Assembly: GCF_013002705.1 (NCBI RefSeq)
Contig: NZ_JABEND010000009.1
Span: 1 to 64,000 of the forward strand
Length of the DNA: 64,000 nt
Reading direction: 5' to 3'
Source: Nakamurella aerolata
GTDB taxonomy: Bacteria > Actinomycetota > Actinomycetes > Mycobacteriales > Nakamurellaceae
Part shown: positions 1,605 to 27,107 of the stretch, in pieces
Numbering within the stretch: position 1 is the first letter of the stretch
Layout: every line of letters begins with the position of its first letter
Position numbers and translations under genes: made by a program
Notes under the pieces: generated by a model
Databases searched by the model: none
The model's input: the letters and a program-made list of their open reading frames with translations, nothing else
What the model was told of the DNA's origin: nothing

Positions 1605-2849
1605 ATGCGTCGTGAATACGGTTCAGGGAGCGTCTACCAGCGCGCCGACGGCCGCTGGATCGGCTCGATCAACGCCGGATACACCCGCTCCGGCACTCGA
1701 CGACGAATCACCATCTCGGCCAAGACCGAGGCGCAGGCCAAGCGCAAGCTCCGCGACAAGCTCCGCGACCTTGACCAGCACGGCACGCCAGAGGCAGCGG
1801 AACGCACCACCGTCAAGGGCTACGCCGATACTTGGCTCGACCGCCAGCAGTCCAGGCTCCGACCATCCACCCACCGCAACTACGCTTCGCACCTGCGGCA
1901 CTGGATCATCCCCACCATCGGACACAAGCAGCTCGCAAAGCTCACGCCAGCGGACGTGCGGGCCGTCGACAAGGCAATCCGCGGCGAGGGGCGGACCTCG
2001 ACCACGGCTCGCGTCATCCAGACTGTGCTGACCAAGATGCTCCGCGACGCGATCGCTGATGGCCACCGCGTCCCTGAGCGGCTGCTGTACCTCGACTCCC
2101 CTGCCCGCGCGGTCAACGACCGCGACGCCATCGACCCCGACCACGCCAAAGCGATCCTGCAGGCCGCCGCGGACCTGGCTGACGGGTCCCGCTGGGTCGC
2201 CGCGCTACTGCAGGGCATGCGCCAAGGCGAATGCCTGGGCCTGACGTGGGATTGCGTCGACACCACCGCCGGAACCATCGACGTGTCCTGGCAGCTGCAG
2301 GCACTCCCCTACCGCGAAAAGTACCGCCCCGCAACAGGTCTGCGCGTTCCCGATGGGTACGAGTACCGGCAGCTCGACGGTTCGCTGTGCCTCGTCCGAC
2401 CCAAGACCGCCCGCGGGCGGCGCATCATCCCGATGGTGCCGTGGATGGCCGCAGCGCTCACCGGCTGGCGACAGCAGGCGCCAGCCTCGCCGCACGGGCT
2501 GGTGTGGCCCCGCCCCGACGGGCGGCCGCAGGTCGCCGCCGACGACCTCGCGGCATGGAAAGCGTTGCAGGACAGGGCGAAAGCCCGACACGGCGCGGGG
2601 CGCCACTACCACCTACACGAAGCGCGCCACACCACGGCGACTTTGTTGATGTCCGCAGGTATCGATGCGTCAGTAGTCACTGCGATCCTGGGCCACTCGT
2701 CGATCGTCACCAGCCGCGGGTATATGCACGCGAACCAGGAGATGGCACGCCAGGCATTGTCGGCTGTGGCCGACAGACTGGGGTTGACAGATGGTCCCCC
2801 GCACCTGCTGGAACAGGCCGGGGGCATAGCCCACTCGGATGAGGAGTGA
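1605..2849 (+). CDS. Tyrosine integrase
   Basis: Catalyses site-specific recombination between phage and the tRNA-Arg attB site. About 414 aa: an N-terminal arm-binding AP2-like region (about 1-55), a SAM-like core-binding domain (about 70-165) and a catalytic domain. Visible catalytic motifs are Arg in GMRQGE (about 206), HEARH (about 338-342), LGHSS (about 362) and the Tyr nucleophile in RGYMH (about 373). ATG 1605 follows the arm-site cluster without a strong Shine-Dalgarno. The last 30-40 residues after EMARQALSAVADRLGL are unusual because nearly the same helix recurs at the end of the next gene (see findings). The stop overlaps the HNH start. Confidence 0.95.
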   Translation: MRREYGSGSVYQRADGRWIGSINAGYTRSGTRRRITISAKTEAQAKRKLRDKLRDLDQHGTPEAAERTTVKGYADTWLDRQQSRLRPSTHRNYASHLRHWIIPTIGHKQLAKLTPADVRAVDKAIRGEGRTSTTARVIQTVLTKMLRDAIADGHRVPERLLYLDSPARAVNDRDAIDPDHAKAILQAAADLADGSRWVAALLQGMRQGECLGLTWDCVDTTAGTIDVSWQLQALPYREKYRPATGLRVPDGYEYRQLDGSLCLVRPKTARGRRIIPMVPWMAAALTGWRQQAPASPHGLVWPRPDGRPQVAADDLAAWKALQDRAKARHGAGRHYHLHEARHTTATLLMSAGIDASVVTAILGHSSIVTSRGYMHANQEMARQALSAVADRLGLTDGPPHLLEQAGGIAHSDEE

Positions 2850-3505
2850 ACGTGAACCAATCTATTTGTGGCGTCGATGGGTGCAATAAACCAACCATTG
2901 CCCGAGGGCTCTGCACCCAGCACTACGACCGCGCCAGGAACGTCGGCGATGTGGAGTTCGGACCGCGCCGCCGCCGCCGTGCCGGCATGACTCATGCGGA
3001 AGTGTTCATGGCGACTCGGAAACACCTTTCCGAGTCAGGTTGTATCGAGTGGCAAGGTCATCGGTCTCGGTACAACTACGGCATCATCCAGAGCAAGACG
3101 TTCGGGTCCCGCAGCGCGCATAGGGTCGCGCTTGAGTTGGCCCTAGGCTTACCCATTCCGGATGACAAGCACGTCTGTCACCGATGCGACAATCCCCCAT
3201 GCGTGAACCCGGTGCACCTATTCGTAGGCGACGACTCGATCAACGTTGCCGACATGATCGCCAAAGGTCGACACGCGCACGGTGAAGGCGCCAGGCAGGC
3301 GAAGCTGAAGGAGGCGGATGTCCGCGACATCCTCGTTCGCTATCGCGCCGGCGGTATCGGTCGCCCTGCGCTCGCTCGCGAGTATGGCGTGTCGCCCGCT
3401 TGCATCCAGAAAATCACCGAGGGTAAGTCCTGGAAGCACGTCTCCACCGAGCTCGCCCGGCAGGCCATGGAGAAGGTCGCCGCGCGGCTCGGGTTGGAAG
3501 GCTAG
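2846..3505 (+). CDS. HNH_3-type endonuclease with integrase-like tail
   Basis: Probable free-standing homing endonuclease. A Cys-rich N-terminus (CGVDGCNKPTIARGLC) precedes an HNH_3 core: GCIEWQG, then AHRVALELALG, then CHRCDNPPCVNPVHL with the HNH metal/catalytic residues. A C-terminal helix-turn-helix-like element (REYGVSPACIQKITEGKSW) follows, as in phage HNH homing enzymes. Such proteins usually end about there; this one continues with ELARQAMEKVAARLGLEG, which matches the integrase C-terminal helix. GTG 2846 overlaps the integrase stop by 4 nt (a second GTG is at 2852). It probably invaded the integrase gene. Confidence 0.88.
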   Translation: MNVNQSICGVDGCNKPTIARGLCTQHYDRARNVGDVEFGPRRRRRAGMTHAEVFMATRKHLSESGCIEWQGHRSRYNYGIIQSKTFGSRSAHRVALELALGLPIPDDKHVCHRCDNPPCVNPVHLFVGDDSINVADMIAKGRHAHGEGARQAKLKEADVRDILVRYRAGGIGRPALAREYGVSPACIQKITEGKSWKHVSTELARQAMEKVAARLGLEG

Positions 3506-12306: not shown

Positions 12307-12560
12307 TGCCGCTGACCGCCCGTGACGGCTACGGCTACGGCTACGGCTACGGCGACGGCGACGGCTACGGCTACGGCTACGGCGACGGCGGTGGCGACGG
12401 CGACGGCTACGGCGACGGCGACGGCGACGGCTACGGCGACGGCTACGGCTACGGCTACGGCGACGGCGGTGGCGACGGCTACGGCGGTGGCGACGGCGGT
12501 GGCGACGGCGACGGCTACAGCTACGGCGGTGGTGTGCCGGGATCGCGGCGGCGGTCATGA
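12297..12560 (+). CDS. Gly-Tyr/Gly-Asp repeat protein
   Basis: 87 aa: a short leader (MAVMPLTARD), then about 68 residues made almost only of GY, GD and GG dipeptides, then a basic end. It is coded by a hexanucleotide array of GGCTAC and GGCGAC units. Alternation of Gly with Tyr/Asp suggests a disordered, possibly phase-separating or Ca-binding chain. Start and stop overlap neighbouring genes, so it is embedded in the translated operon. Confidence 0.7.
   Translation: MAVMPLTARDGYGYGYGYGDGDGYGYGYGDGGGDGDGYGDGDGDGYGDGYGYGYGDGGGDGYGGGDGGGDGDGYSYGGGVPGSRRRS
12328..12535 (+). repeat. GGCTAC/GGCGAC hexanucleotide array
   Basis: About 34 consecutive 6-bp units, mainly GGCTAC and GGCGAC with interspersed GGCGGT. 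It is in frame throughout, and prone to length change by slippage. Confidence 0.9.
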
Positions 12561-12646
12561 GCACCCGCGAGCGGATCGTCTACGCCGCAGCGGTTCTCGC
12601 CGGTGCGCTGCTCATCGCCTGCGTGCCGACAGGCTGGTGGCTGTGA
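12557..12646 (+). CDS. Tiny membrane peptide (29 aa)
   Basis: MSTRERIVYAA, then a hydrophobic stretch VLAGALLIACVPTGWWL: a single-span peptide. Both ends overlap neighbouring genes (ATGA; shared base). Function unknown. Confidence 0.5.
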   Translation: MSTRERIVYAAAVLAGALLIACVPTGWWL

Positions 12647-15911: not shown

Positions 15912-16678
15912 CCATCCCCAATTTCATGCCCTTGCTGCGCAAGGGCATCGGCAAGATCCCCGCCGAAGGCGGCTGTCTCGTACAGGTGGCGTCCTATCTG
16001 GCCGATGGACTCTCGTGGACGGATCAGACCCCGTGCGTGCACCCGGTGCTGCGGAGTCTGGCAATCGCAGTGAATGACCGCGTGTCGGATGCGGTGCGCC
16101 CCACTCTGGCGCCGCTGGCGGTTGACCTGGTAGGCACAGGGCCGGGACCGAAAGGGGTTGAGGGACAACAGCTTTCAGTGCGGCTGGCAGTGTGGTTTGC
16201 CCGCCAGGTGCTGCGCGAGAGTGACCAGGTGTCACTGCGGGCAATCGAGACTGCCGAGGCGTGGGCGGACGAGCCGACCAGACGGAACGCCCACGCCGCT
16301 GCCAATGCTGCCCGTACTGCCCGTGCTGCTGCCAATACTGCCAGTGCTGCTGGGGGTACCGCTGCCAATACTGCCAATACTGCCAATACTGCTGCTCGTG
16401 CTGCTGCCTATGCTGCTGCCAGTGCTGCTGCCAGTGCTGCTACCAGTGCTGCCAATTTTGCTGCTGCCAGTGCTGCTGCCAATACTGCCAGTGCTGCTGG
16501 GGGTACCGCTGCCACCAGCAGTGCATTGGTCGCCCTGCTCACTGGCGCTATCGCAGAGCACCGCCGCCTGACTGGTCACCAGCCCGAGCCCATCGATCCC
16601 GAGCGTCAGCAGTACGTGCTGGAAACTCTGGGCGTTGGCGGTGATCAGCCGGAGCGGGCCAGTCAGGCGGTGGAGTGA
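15908..16678 (+). CDS. Alanine-rich repeat protein
   Basis: 256 aa. A folded N-terminal region of about 120 residues (LLRKGIGKIPAEGGCLVQVASYLADG) is followed by about 75 residues of Ala with Asn, Thr, Ser and Tyr (AANTASAAGGTAANTA type). The protein ends in a short domain (LTGAIAEHRRLTGHQPEP). The Ala tract should form long helices. Start overlaps the previous stop (ATGA). Confidence 0.7.
   Translation: MTIPNFMPLLRKGIGKIPAEGGCLVQVASYLADGLSWTDQTPCVHPVLRSLAIAVNDRVSDAVRPTLAPLAVDLVGTGPGPKGVEGQQLSVRLAVWFARQVLRESDQVSLRAIETAEAWADEPTRRNAHAAANAARTARAAANTASAAGGTAANTANTANTAARAAAYAAASAAASAATSAANFAAASAAANTASAAGGTAATSSALVALLTGAIAEHRRLTGHQPEPIDPERQQYVLETLGVGGDQPERASQAVE
16291..16512 (+). repeat. GCTGCC/AATACTGCC trinucleotide-type array
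   Basis: In-frame low-complexity DNA dominated by GCTGCC, AATACTGCC and AGTGCTGCC units. The 30-nt segment around GCTGGGGGTACCGCTGCC occurs twice (about 16350 and 16496). It codes for the Ala-rich tract. Confidence 0.85.
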
Positions 16679-23065: not shown

Positions 23066-23111
23066 CAATGCTGTGACCTGCTGCGACGCTGTGGGTGCAA
23101 CAAGTGTGCCC

Positions 23112-23141
23112 AGACCCCGGTAGCTCAGGCTGTCGGGGTCT
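23112..23141 (+). terminator. Terminator after the early operon
   Basis: AGACCCCG and CGGGGTCT form a stem around a 14-nt loop, followed by TTTGCGTT. Located 46 nt after the zinc-ribbon gene and before the TnpB remnant. Confidence 0.6.
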
Positions 23142-23184
23142 TTGCGTTACCCAGCGCGGCTCAGGTACTCGGCCAGTGCGCGGC

Positions 23185-23802
23185 GTGCCAACTTCGAGAC
23201 CAGATGCGACGGTCGGGCTGGATGCGGGCATCACGACACTGGTCACGCTCTCCACCGGAGAGAAGATCACCAACCCGAAGCACGAGAAGAAGGACCGGGC
23301 CAAGCTCGCCAAGGCGCAGCGCAACCTGTCACGCAAACAGAAGGGTTCGAACAACCGGGCCAAGGCGAGGTTGAAGGTCGCCAAGGTCTACGCCCGCATC
23401 GCCGACCGGCGACGGCACCACCTGCACGAGCTCACGACTCGAATCGTTCGCGAAAACCAAACGATCGTTATCGAGGACCTGGCCGTGCGGAACATGGTGA
23501 AGAACCGATCACTGGCGCGGGCTATCTCCGACGCGTCCTGGTCGGAACTCCGGTCGATGCTGGAGTACAAGGCCGACTGGTACGGCCGCGAAGTGATCGC
23601 GATCGACCGTTGGTATCCGAGCAGCAAGACCTGCTCCGACTGCGGTCACCTGCTGCGGTCCCTGCCGCTGAATATTCGGGAGTGGGTGTGTGCCGAGTGT
23701 GGCGCCGTCCACGACCGGGACGTCAACGCGGCACGAACGATTCTGGCCGCGGGGCTCGCGGTTTCAGCCTGTGGAGATGGAGTGAGACCGCCTCGCTCCT
23801 GA
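23185..23802 (+). pseudogene. Truncated TnpB (RNA-guided nuclease family), C-terminal part
   Basis: About 205 aa remain of a protein normally 370-400 aa. Present are RuvC-I (VGLDAGITTLVTLS), the helical insert (KLAKAQRNLSRKQKGSNNR), RuvC-II (TIVIEDLAVRNM), the zinc finger (CSDCGHLL ... CAECGAVHDRD) and RuvC-III Asp in DRDVNAARTI. The WED/REC half that binds target DNA and the guide RNA is missing, so it should not act as a programmable nuclease. No tnpA transposase is nearby. Confidence 0.88.
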
Positions 23803-23866
23803 AGCGAGGAGGCATCCGTTGAAGAAGCAGGAATCCCCCGGCTTTAGCCGTGGGGAGCAAGTCAAC
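23803..23866 (+). mobile_element. TnpB element right end with hairpin
   Basis: Downstream of the TnpB stop, AATCCCCCGGCT-TT-AGCCGTGGGGAG (23832-23857) folds into the hairpin typical of the 3' end of IS200/IS605-type TnpB elements, where the guide (omega) RNA ends. It is followed by GTCAAC, after which phage coding sequence resumes. Confidence 0.7.
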
Positions 23867-24034
23867 TACCACCGCTGCACCACCGACCAGTGCGATCAAT
23901 GGACCGACCGCGAGCACTGCGACGACTGCGAGGACGAGAGGCAGGCGCGACGTGAAGTACCGACGTTGCCTCGACTGTCCCGCGGTGATCGACGCGAAGC
24001 GGACCCGATGCCCGAACTGCAGCAAGACCTTTGA
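23861..24034 (+). pseudogene. Cys-rich phage gene missing its 5' end
   Basis: Directly after the element end the frame reads NYHRCTTDQCDQWTDREHCDDCEDERQARR, a Cys-rich small protein like others in this region. It has no start of its own. The TnpB element apparently replaced or separated its beginning. Confidence 0.5.
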
Positions 24035-24257
24035 GCAGCAGCGCGGTAGCTCAACCGCCCGCGGCTACGGCGCACCGCACCGGCGGATACGGGCGGCCAC
24101 CGCGAAAAACGTTGCCGCCGAAGGCTTCACCTGCTGGCGCTGCGGACAGAGCTTCCCGCCCGGAAGCCAATTCGACCTCGGTCACACTGACGACCGGACC
24201 GGATACGCTGGACCGGAGTGCATGCCCTGCAATAGGGCGACAGCATCACGAAGATGA
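23952..24257 (+). CDS. HNH endonuclease (terminase-associated)
   Basis: 101 aa. A zinc-binding start (CLDCPAVIDAKRTRCPNC) is followed by the HNH fold (RGYGAPHRRIRA, CWRCGQSFPP, FDLGHTDD, GPECMPCNRAT). HNH proteins next to the terminase are needed for DNA packaging in HK97-type cos phages, and position fits. The C-terminus (NRATASRR) is short and differs in DNA sequence from a second tail copy at 24862-24921. It appears to be a replacement end brought by the following gene. Confidence 0.85.
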   Translation: MKYRRCLDCPAVIDAKRTRCPNCSKTFEQQRGSSTARGYGAPHRRIRAATAKNVAAEGFTCWRCGQSFPPGSQFDLGHTDDRTGYAGPECMPCNRATASRR

Positions 24258-24310
24258 CCCCGCGAGGTTGCAGCCTCCGGGGTTACGGCCGATCTGAGAT
24301 GGAGATCGAC

Positions 24311-24865
24311 ATGGACAACGCTACCTGCTCGGTGACCAACTGCGACTTGCCGACAAGGAAGGCGGGCATGTGCGTCAGCCACTACATGAAGCAATGGCGG
24401 TACGGGACACCGACGCCAACCTTTGAACCGCGCGCCCTGCGCGATGTCGTGGGCAGACGGTTTGGCGCCTTGATGGTCACAGGCGAGCGCATCGGCCGCA
24501 CGTGGGTCTGTCTCTGCGACTGCGGTAACACCACGCGCGCCACGCGGGACGGCCTGCTGAATGGGATGCGGATCGCTTGTGGCGACAAAGCGGCGCACTA
24601 CCGCCGCGAGGATGCCGGTTACTACGCGGCGCACGACCGCGTGAAACGGGACCGAGGCCGAGCTGCCGAACACCTGTGTGTCGACTGCAGCCAGCCAGCC
24701 CAGGAGTGGTCATACAACCACGATGATCCGGACGAGCGGATCTCGGTGGCCTCTTCCTCGGCCGGAGCGCCGTACAGCCTGAGTCCCGCTCACTACTCGC
24801 CGCGTTGCATCGCGTGTCACCGCCGTTTCGACGGGAACCCTGTAGCGACGCGGCGCCCTGCATGA
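24311..24865 (+). CDS. HNH homing-endonuclease-like protein inserted in the upstream HNH gene
   Basis: About 184 aa. A Cys-rich start (CSVTNCDLPTRKAGMCVSHY) is followed by an AP2/NUMOD-like DNA-binding module (VGRRFGALMVTGERIG, WVCLCDCGNTTRATRDGLL) and a degenerate HNH core (LCVDCSQPAQEWSYNHDD, YSPRCIACHRRFDGN). GGAGA at 24301-24305 favours ATG 24311; ATG 24254, overlapping the upstream stop, or ATG 24299 are alternatives. It separates the upstream HNH gene from what looks like that gene's original 3' end. Confidence 0.75.
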   Translation: MDNATCSVTNCDLPTRKAGMCVSHYMKQWRYGTPTPTFEPRALRDVVGRRFGALMVTGERIGRTWVCLCDCGNTTRATRDGLLNGMRIACGDKAAHYRREDAGYYAAHDRVKRDRGRAAEHLCVDCSQPAQEWSYNHDDPDERISVASSSAGAPYSLSPAHYSPRCIACHRRFDGNPVATRRPA

Positions 24866-24921
24866 CCGCCCCCGAATGCCGCCCGTGCAACCGGGCGACA
24901 GCCGGCCGCACAGCGCTCTGA
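24862..24921 (+). pseudogene. Orphan 3' tail of the terminase-associated HNH gene
   Basis: The frame reads (MT)APECRPCNRATAGRTAL and stop, the canonical end of phage HNH proteins and clearly the same tail as GPECMPCNRATASRR at 24210-24257. DNA differs at most third positions (gag/gaa, ccc/ccg, aat/aac, agg/cgg). It is in frame with an ATG overlapping the endonuclease stop but is too short to be a gene. Confidence 0.75.
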
Positions 24922-25042
24922 CCTGCGGAAACGCAAAACGGACACCCCGGGGGGGACACCCCCGCTGACCTGGGCTTTTGGACCGCGGGGAAGGTGACAA
25001 GCTGTCCGGAGTGCTGAGTTACTTCCGAAGAAGGGGATCACC
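24922..25042. other. Intergenic region before the terminase, candidate cos/late promoter
   Basis: GC-rich with two copies of GGACACCCC (24940-24948, 24954-24962) around a G-run. It lies between the HNH and terminase genes, where cos sites of HNH-bearing phages are often found. No defined ends can be read from the sequence. Confidence 0.3.
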
Positions 25043-25144
25043 GTGACTGATTGCTCAAGAGGTGGCAAGCACGATCCTGGCAACGTTCAAGTCGCTCACC
25101 TGTCCTGCAATGTGGCGAAAGGTTCGCGGTGCTTAACGGCCTAG
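25043..25144 (+). CDS. Possible 33-aa leader ORF overlapping terS
   Basis: GTG 25043 has a good ribosome site (GAAGAAGGGGA) and opens a short frame ending in TAG at 25142-25144, overlapping the terS start in another frame. It could be a coupling leader, or the true terS start separated from the gene by a frameshift. Confidence 0.3.
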   Translation: MTDCSRGGKHDPGNVQVAHLSCNVAKGSRCLTA

Positions 25145-25521
25145 GTGATCGCGGCCGGCGGCTGTGGGGGTCACTGCTGGCCCAAGATTCAGCGCTCGAG
25201 GATGAACTGAACCCGATGCGTGAGGTTGCCCTGTCGGCGTGCCGGACGGCGGACCGGGTAGAGAATCTGGAGTCTCGGGCTACATCTGTCGATCCCGTTG
25301 TTGAGGGCCGAGCGGGTCCGATGATTCATCCGTTGTTCGCAGAGGTTCGGCAGCAGTCGGCGTTGTTGGCCCGATTGGTGGCGGCATTGCGGCTGCCGGA
25401 CGAGGTTTCGGGTAAGCGCCCGATACGCCGGCAGATTCGTGGGGTCCAACAGCCGTCAAAGGTGTCATCGCTGGATCGGGTGTCGAGCTTGGATCGCGCT
25501 CGGGCGGCGCGGAGTTCCTGA
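25129..25521 (+). CDS. Terminase small subunit
   Basis: 130 aa. LNGLGDRGRRLWGSLL followed by a helical region (LEDELNPMREVALSACRTADRVENLES, HPLFAEVRQQSALLARLVAALRLP) matches the common actinophage small terminase, which recognises phage DNA and recruits the large subunit. GTG 25129 (after GCGAAAGG) is the likeliest start; the frame is open upstream to TTG 25051. The repeat SSLDRVSSLDRARA marks the basic tail. Ends overlapping terL. Confidence 0.8.
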   Translation: MLNGLGDRGRRLWGSLLAQDSALEDELNPMREVALSACRTADRVENLESRATSVDPVVEGRAGPMIHPLFAEVRQQSALLARLVAALRLPDEVSGKRPIRRQIRGVQQPSKVSSLDRVSSLDRARAARSS

Positions 25522-27107
25522 TGCCCTGGACAGGGCCGCTTTTCGAGGGCCACGTCTGCTCGCTCGGCTACGAGCTGCTGGACTGGATTCACGAGTTTGA
25601 ATGCCACGGCCCCGGCGACGTACAGGGCGAGCCGCTCGACTATGACGACGAGATGCGGGACTTCGTCATCGAGGCGTACCGGCTGGATCCGAACACCGGC
25701 CGGCGGGTCTACGACGAGGGCGTGCTGTCGCGACCGAAAGGCCGAGCGAAGTCGGAGATTGCCGGCCACATTGCGATCGCTGAGGCGTTCGGCCCGGTAC
25801 GGTTCGGCGGATGGGGTGCCGACAGTCAGCCTGTCGGCCGGCCGGTCACGTCGCCGCTGTTGAAGTGCCTGGCGACAGAGGAAAGCCAGACCGGCAACAC
25901 TTTCGAGGTCGTCGCGTTCATCGCAGCCGATTGGGGCCAGGACGTTCATCCCGACGTCTACGGCGGCGCGTCGGGCGTCCGTCAGTACCAGTCGGCTACG
26001 GCGATCTACCTGCCTCATGGTGGTGAGATTCGCGCATGCACCAGCGGGGCGGCGAGCAAGGACGGCGGCAAGGAGACGTTCGTCGTCGCTGACGAGTCGC
26101 ACCTGTACGTGCTGCGTGAGCTCAAGTCGATGTACGGAACGGTCCGGCGGAACCTCGGCAAGCGGAAGCTGGCTGAGCCGTGGATGCTGCAGACGTCGAC
26201 GGCGTACCGGCCGGGTGAGCAGTCGGTGTTCGAGGACACGTTGACCGCTTGGCGCAAGGGCGAGCTGTCGTCGACGGTGTACGTCAACCACCGTGAGGCC
26301 AAGGGCCGGGTGGACATCTCGGACCGTCCGCACACGATGGCGCAGTTGCGGGATGTGTACGGCGCTGCGGCCGAGTGGATGGATCTGGATCGGATCTACC
26401 GGGAGATGACGGATCCGCGGTCGTGTCCTGACGAAGAGACGGCGGCGCGGTACTTCCTGAACCGGCCGATGTCGGGTAAGGACGCGTGGATCCCTGATGC
26501 GGTGGTGGAGCGGCAGGCCCGTAAGGAGCCCGTTGAGGAAGGCTCCGCGATCGCGCTCGGGTTCGATGGGTCGCTGAACGATGACTCGACGGTGCTGATC
26601 GGTTCACGAATGTCCGACGGGTTCCTGTTCCCGATCGGTATCTGGGCGAAGCCCACGGGCCCCGAGGGGAACTGGTGGGAAGTGCCGAGGGCCGACGTGC
26701 TGGCCATGATCCGTGAGGCGTTCGAGCGGTACAACGTGTCGCGGCTGTACGCCGATCCGCACGAGTGGCGCTCCGACATCGATGCGCTGCAGCAGGATCT
26801 CGGCGAGCGGGTGTTGCCGTGGGCAACGTCCCGTGAAGTGCAGATGTCAGCCGCGCTGGACCGGCTCCGCGTCGACCTGATGAGCGGTGCGGTGTGGCAC
26901 GACGGCGACGGGGTGCTGATGGAGCATTTCCGCAACGCCTACGTGGCGCGTAAGGGCGGGAAGCGTCTGGTGCGCAAGGAATATCCGAACTCTGACCGCA
27001 AGATCGACTCGGTGGTTGGTGCGGCGTTGGCGTACGAGGCGCGCGCTGACGCGATCTCCGCCGGCTGGACTGAGTCATCGGACGACAACCGTGTGTTCTG
27101 TTGGTGA
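25521..27107 (+). CDS. Terminase large subunit
   Basis: 528 aa packaging motor and nuclease. The deviant Walker A SRPKGRAKSE is at about 70, Walker B TFVVADESHL at about 190 and the coupling motif LQTSTAY at about 225. The C-terminal RNase H-like nuclease starts at LGFDGSLNDDS (Asp, about 352), with further acids in YADPHEW and SDRKIDSVVGAAL. ATG 25521 shares a base with the terS stop. Confidence 0.95.
   Translation: MPWTGPLFEGHVCSLGYELLDWIHEFECHGPGDVQGEPLDYDDEMRDFVIEAYRLDPNTGRRVYDEGVLSRPKGRAKSEIAGHIAIAEAFGPVRFGGWGADSQPVGRPVTSPLLKCLATEESQTGNTFEVVAFIAADWGQDVHPDVYGGASGVRQYQSATAIYLPHGGEIRACTSGAASKDGGKETFVVADESHLYVLRELKSMYGTVRRNLGKRKLAEPWMLQTSTAYRPGEQSVFEDTLTAWRKGELSSTVYVNHREAKGRVDISDRPHTMAQLRDVYGAAAEWMDLDRIYREMTDPRSCPDEETAARYFLNRPMSGKDAWIPDAVVERQARKEPVEEGSAIALGFDGSLNDDSTVLIGSRMSDGFLFPIGIWAKPTGPEGNWWEVPRADVLAMIREAFERYNVSRLYADPHEWRSDIDALQQDLGERVLPWATSREVQMSAALDRLRVDLMSGAVWHDGDGVLMEHFRNAYVARKGGKRLVRKEYPNSDRKIDSVVGAALAYEARADAISAGWTESSDDNRVFCW

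Follow-up and report, generated by a model that had tools for sequence, protein, structure and literature searches.

A free-standing HNH-like endonuclease gene has inserted near the 3' end of the HNH gene beside the terminase genes of an actinobacterial prophage, in such a way that the host gene carries a differently spelled replacement of its tail, while the native tail is left as an orphan downstream of the insert. The prophage lies in the 64,000-nt stretch of Nakamurella aerolata DNA analyzed here (contig NZ_JABEND010000009.1, positions 1 to 64,000; referred to as the window) and is also held in IMG/VR as IMGVR_UViG_2910384349_000001. The host HNH gene ends in PECMPCNRATASRR followed by a stop codon, and an orphan reading PECRPCNRATAGRTAL and stop begins right at the stop codon of the endonuclease gene. 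The same anatomy is found at several unrelated phage genes and in two HNH families, and we consider it likely that it represents a mobile cassette made of a recoded piece of its target gene, a structured leader RNA, and an HNH-like homing endonuclease.

Results

Anatomy of the insertion in the window

The duplicated tail reported in the preliminary description of this sequence is real. Tail 1 compared with the orphan scores 64 in BLOSUM62, whereas the next best place in the whole window scores 37 and the best of 500 shuffles of the downstream 1.26 kb scores 34. Over 13 aligned codons, identity by codon position is 10, 11, and 5 of 13, so most third positions differ. Small corrections concern the likely start of the HNH gene, a GTG at 23952, and the point at which the orphan begins, directly at the endonuclease stop codon; the ATG start of the endonuclease at 24311 is supported by L054, the closest relative at the same site, which has the same ATGGACAACG.

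Table 1. Positions in the window of the cassette, its surroundings, and the parallel case at the integrase gene.
Position	Strand	Feature	Support
23952..24257	+	Terminase-side HNH gene (GTG start), host gene of the insertion, now a hybrid with a replacement 3' end	PHROG HNH families phrog_1808/phrog_144; relatives lie about 45-70 bp left of cos
24210..24257	+	Replacement (recoded) tail 1, GPECMPCNRATASRR and stop	GC3 7/13 against 13/16 in the orphan and 0.77 in the gene body
24255..24286	+	Leader hairpin 1 (GACCCCG c GAGG loop CCTC CGGGGTT)	Covariance model match 24250-24296, E 7e-8; window sequence is in the training alignment
24290..24308	+	Second inverted repeat CGATCT-gagatgg-AGATCG around the ribosome-binding site	6-bp stem, p 0.015 against shuffles; same layout in most leaders
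24311..24865	+	HNH-like free-standing endonuclease gene (184 aa)	phrog_22195 E 9.5e-36; conserved residues and fold comparison, see text
24868..24921	+	Orphan native tail of the HNH gene, APECRPCNRATAGRTAL and stop	Similarity to tail 1; native distance to cos
24940..24998	+	cos region, with cos-like core GGACCGCGGGGAAGGTGAC at 24980-24998	Matches L040 CCCCCGCCCTGACCTGGGAAGACGGACCGCGGGGGAGA, L039, and the genome ends of Hum25
25051..25521	+	Terminase small subunit (start not fixed)	phrog_1496 E 9e-12
25521..27107	+	Terminase large subunit	71% identical to TerL of Arthrobacter phage Hum25
2739..2786	+	Parallel case: replacement tail segment EMARQALSAVADRLGL near the 3' end of the integrase gene (1605-2849)	Tail scan, see text
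2789..2837	+	Parallel case: same leader hairpin, inside the integrase C-terminal extension	Covariance model, 27.5 bits, E 2e-4; not in the training set
2846..3505	+	Parallel case: HNH_3 endonuclease gene whose last codons (3449-3502, ELARQAMEKVAARLGLEG and stop) are the orphan integrase tail (18 codons) fused in frame	Pfam HNH_3 E 6.7e-8; homologues end before the tail

A nucleotide search of the junction in public phages returned nothing, and protein and pattern searches were therefore used. Genomes of the same genus contained no close copy of the insert or of the terminase of this phage. Just upstream of the HNH gene lies a TnpB (OrfB_IS605) gene (23095-23870), apparently truncated at its N terminus and followed by a CCCCCGGCTTTAGCCGTGGGG end sequence, which may be an IS605-type remnant. 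A possible ATGACC repeat at both ends of the insert was judged too short to interpret. Elsewhere in the window, long low-complexity repeat stretches at 12322-12600 and 16158-16571 code for Ala/Thr-rich ORFs.

Relatives with an intact HNH-cos-terS junction, the comparison that the preliminary description had proposed, do exist. In Hum25, the HNH gene is the last gene, 69 bp from the genome end, and terS is the first. Two IMG/VR phages with the rare PEC form of this HNH (L039 and L040) run HNH, about 45 bp, GGACCGCGGGG, and terS without an insert. In the window, the same cos-like core is found 58 bp after the orphan stop, so the orphan occupies the native place, with the cassette to its left. 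By nucleotide identity, the two window tails are equally far from L039 and L040 (25-26 of 36), and tail 1 differs from the orphan as much as tails of separate phages do (25/36 against 25-27/36 nt). Hence, in this phage it is position and not identity that identifies the native tail, and the term "recoded" rests on the sister cases described below.

Recurrence at unrelated target genes

To assess generality, the family of the insert was aligned and 80 IMG/VR loci were retrieved. A survey of about 70 loci of this family, in which we scanned for a protein-level repeat between the gene before the endonuclease and the sequence at its stop codon, found the same layout, besides the window, at a RusA-like resolvase gene (L128, 29 codons), at three other HNH genes (L057, 18 codons; L120, 12 codons; L125, 11 codons and stop), and at a connector-like gene (L089, 9 codons and stop). 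The target names for L128 and L089 come from reading the sequence rather than from a profile search. The orphan starts at the endonuclease stop in the window, L128, and L057, and is fused in frame to the endonuclease C terminus in L120, L089, and L125. In a second, unrelated family (HNH_3), the scan found gp52/gp53 of Mycobacterium phage SkinnyPete, where the target is a DNA methylase (score 96), and the integrase/HNH pair of the window (score 65). The isolated phages Awesomesauce, DocMcStuffins, Misha28, and TootsiePop likewise carry the methylase with recoded tail, HNH gene, and orphan native tail.

Cross-locus null comparisons had a 99% point of 50 and a maximum of 60; the short cases L089, L120, and L125 (47-52) rest on matched stop codons and position as well. 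Among 493 non-endonuclease ORFs of the same loci, only one scored 60 or more, a low-complexity match. Most loci of these families show no detectable duplicate. Long low-complexity RRP/SPT matches were set aside on the basis of the cross-locus and non-endonuclease controls. L180 scored high, but its nearly identical repeat (934-1017 and 2022-2105) is a promoter/leader sequence in front of two genes flanking an HNH gene and not a gene tail. L189 and L192 remain weak and were not counted. In L107 (1608-2350), the endonuclease is inserted near the 5' end of an SNase-like gene on the other strand, with a duplicated N-terminal segment; the polarity is the same, but because of an apparent frameshift this locus was not counted either.

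Empty sites

Uninterrupted alleles are available for three of the sister cases. L134 has the host gene of L057 uninterrupted: the 664-bp cassette lies exactly between adjacent bases 8247 and 8248, the orphan is identical to native at 52/54 nt and the upstream copy at 38/54 nt, and the gene body is 82% identical. L215 has the intact RusA gene of L128, with the orphan identical at 87/87 nt and the replacement at 59/87. The methylase is intact in Piper2020, Sparky, and Spartacus, for which the SkinnyPete orphan matches 66, 68, and 59 of 78 nt and the replacement 47, 47, and 52, respectively. In these cases the orphan is the native tail, and the upstream copy keeps the protein but changes the codons.

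The preliminary description had named the occurrence of both tails without an endonuclease as an observation that would speak against it, and we searched for this in one case: the SkinnyPete methylase tail occurs at 166 places in 160 phage records, and the six extra places equal the number of records with the HNH gene in this place. Gordonia phage Wrigley (L222, 1480-2145) carries a related HNH gene followed by the orphan methylase tail, next to an unrelated upstream gene, so endonuclease and orphan can move on together.

Codon changes in the replacement tails

Codon by codon, L057 and L134 agree (one synonymous change in fifteen) up to codon -16 and then differ, mostly synonymously, from -15 to +17, except for a short core around the insertion point. 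SkinnyPete and Piper2020 agree from -10 to -4 and then differ at nearly every synonymous site from -3 to +16, giving runs of synonymous changes with sharp left borders. Across eight cases, replacement tails have a mean GC3 of 0.54 against 0.86 in orphans, 0.84 in gene bodies, and 0.74 in the endonuclease genes (Wilcoxon p 0.016, 0.016, and 0.055). The SkinnyPete replacement has a GC3 of 7/22 against 13-21/22 in eleven natural or orphan tails, and 18% identical codons against 48% among natural pairs; its codon use lies outside that of nine natural homologues. This favors selection for a different DNA spelling over the mere import of a homologue, although eight cases are few and L125 does not follow the trend, being no richer in AT and keeping many codons.

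A conserved leader hairpin

A hairpin with a one-base bulge followed by TGRCCGA precedes the endonuclease in both window cassettes and in many loci of both HNH families (within L053-L132 and L135-L214). Covariation over 23 sequences is strong: 92.8% of cells are paired, 45 cells have changes on both sides, and the score is 0.462 against 0.124 when shuffled (0 of 500) and at most 0.094 when slid. The alignment was built from hairpin matches and thus leans toward the structure. A second inverted repeat encloses the ribosome-binding site in most sequences. Rfam has no match to this two-hairpin leader, which is a candidate new RNA family.

The endonuclease

Thirteen positions are invariant in 27 homologues of the endonuclease, among them the zinc and HNH residues H108, C123, C126, W133, Y135, C166, C169, H170, and D174. 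Profile searches gave a divided answer, with PHROG matches to HNH profiles (phrog_1271, E 6.5e-9; phrog_374, E 3.2e-7) but no match in Pfam, and on their own do not settle the assignment. In the structural model (pLDDT 88), residues 100-184 align best with Cas5-HNH (Z 5.4), GVE2 HNH (4.8), and Gme HNH nickase (4.2); these Z scores are low and no Foldseek hit was obtained at E 0.001, so the fold evidence is weak and leaves the presence of an HNH fold undecided. A PDB sequence search with the family profile gave only chance matches to ribosomal proteins.

Relatives sit at other places in phages, for instance just right of cos in Mercurio and Pinnie, as expected of a mobile gene. L054 (60% identical endonuclease) sits at the same HNH-cos junction with the same leader but without a readable orphan, which indicates that the orphan is dispensable or was never present there; this locus perhaps represents a later stage.

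Discussion

The interpretation offered in the preliminary description, an endonuclease placed at the 3' end of a phage gene together with a diverged replacement tail as a general strategy for harmless, self-protecting insertion, with the integrase as another instance in the same prophage, is supported by our analysis. What the sequences demonstrate directly is the insertion itself, with empty sites in sister cases, the restoration of the gene end to encode a complete protein, the orphaned native tail, and the changed codons. The mechanism is inferred from this anatomy: the endonuclease would recognize and cut the native coding sequence around the insertion point in phages that lack it, and repair from the cassette-bearing phage would copy the cassette in. 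As the host gene would rebuild a cuttable site if it regained its native tail, the tail it regains must differ in DNA but not in protein, which would give rescue of a useful gene, so that the gene still works, together with immunity to self-cleavage. Neither cleavage of the native tail, nor immunity of the recoded one, nor spread in mixed infection was assayed here. Besides the lack of cleavage data, the absence of a detectable duplicate from most loci, the behavior of L125, the lack of a readable orphan in L054, and the weak fold evidence for the nuclease count against this explanation. The hairpin leader probably keeps endonuclease expression low or timed.

The main alternative is that the endonuclease came with the 3' end of a homologous HNH gene from a diverged phage, by illegitimate recombination or co-conversion, such that the tail differs only because the donor differs and immunity is a by-product. 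The divergence of the two window tails, no greater than that between separate phages, fits this reading, as does the changed tract of L057, which starts 15 codons left of the insertion, as a crossover would; the corresponding cases in fungal mitochondria are also read in this way (PMC3630166). However, the replacement tails have lower GC3 than the gene bodies and tend to be lower than the endonuclease genes they travel with, the SkinnyPete tail lies outside its natural homologues, and several unrelated targets show the same direction. We thus regard this alternative as possible but unlikely.

A relic of recombination between two HNH genes or two phages, with the endonuclease present by chance and the second tail derived from another HNH gene, is very unlikely. 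HNH genes and endonucleases do cluster near cos and terminase and mark boundaries of exchange (PMC10448857), and similar endonucleases also sit just right of cos in Mercurio and Pinnie, but the orphan lies at its native distance from cos, it is in place and matches the uninterrupted gene in three sister cases, and the anatomy repeats at RusA, methylase, and connector-like genes. Least likely is an unrecognized intron or intein, in which the insert is spliced out and only the orphan tail is used, a reading suggested by an insertion in ShiLan whose 5'-end mimicry its authors considered as an intron sign (PMC11855218), since Rfam returned no intron match at either threshold, only 53 nt separate tail 1 from the endonuclease and none separate the endonuclease from the orphan, leaving no room for a ribozyme core, and tail 1 ends in a stop codon (TGA at 24257), which rules out an intein.

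In a broader reading, which we consider somewhat more likely than not, phage HNH endonucleases of at least two families spread as modular home-and-rescue cassettes, consisting of a target-specific piece of the host gene driven by selection to differ from the native DNA at nearly every synonymous site, a conserved two-hairpin leader RNA, and the endonuclease. The recoded piece would make insertion into needed genes harmless and block self-cutting without an intron or intein, the textbook ways for a homing endonuclease to sit in a needed gene without killing it. Such a recoded spare part, a further way in phages that needs no splicing, explains diverged duplicate tails and odd endonuclease C termini that annotation overlooks. 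The orphan tails mark the likely cut site of many uncharacterized endonucleases, so their targets could be read from the genome.

The order of parts has a precedent in the mobile ORFs of fungal mitochondria (Allomyces macrogynus atp6; Glomus sp. atp6, atp9, cox2, and nad3; PMC3630166), in which a gene core is followed by an inserted, diverged C terminus in frame, an endonuclease ORF, and the native C terminus left downstream, and in which the native copy matches relatives and the inserted copy does not (64-81% nt identity). The window and its sister loci share this order, and L057, L128, and SkinnyPete share the relation of the two copies to relatives; for the window itself, relatives are too distant to decide this by identity. 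Those elements reside in an organelle, encode LAGLIDADG or GIY-YIG enzymes, and are read as gene transfer, whereas the cassettes described here carry HNH-type enzymes in actinophages, tails of about 9-35 codons, replacement codons shifted to AT-ending, and a conserved hairpin leader. Our literature searches, which covered only open-licence papers and are thus no proof of novelty, found no report of replacement tails in phages.

Free-standing endonucleases in T4-like phages (SegA-G and MobA-E; PMC2988022) take part in intronless homing, lie near essential genes, often overlap the 3' end of the upstream gene, and have their expression damped by RNA hairpins; that account describes HEGs between genes or splitting genes into two polypeptides, makes no mention of duplication, and no replacement tail was found in it. 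The ShiLan insertion places an HNH gene in an actinophage DNA methylase, and the first 11 residues of the insert resemble the first 11 after it, a mimicry that is unexplained (PMC11855218). There the host frame reads through the insert, while here the replacement tail ends the gene; we infer that ShiLan may be a relative of this class. Synthetic home-and-rescue drives (HomeR; PMC7968924) follow the same logic of a nuclease aimed at an essential gene plus rescue of that gene. They are engineered CRISPR drives in Drosophila, whereas the phage cassette is natural and uses a protein endonuclease, representing a natural precedent for recoded-rescue gene drives.
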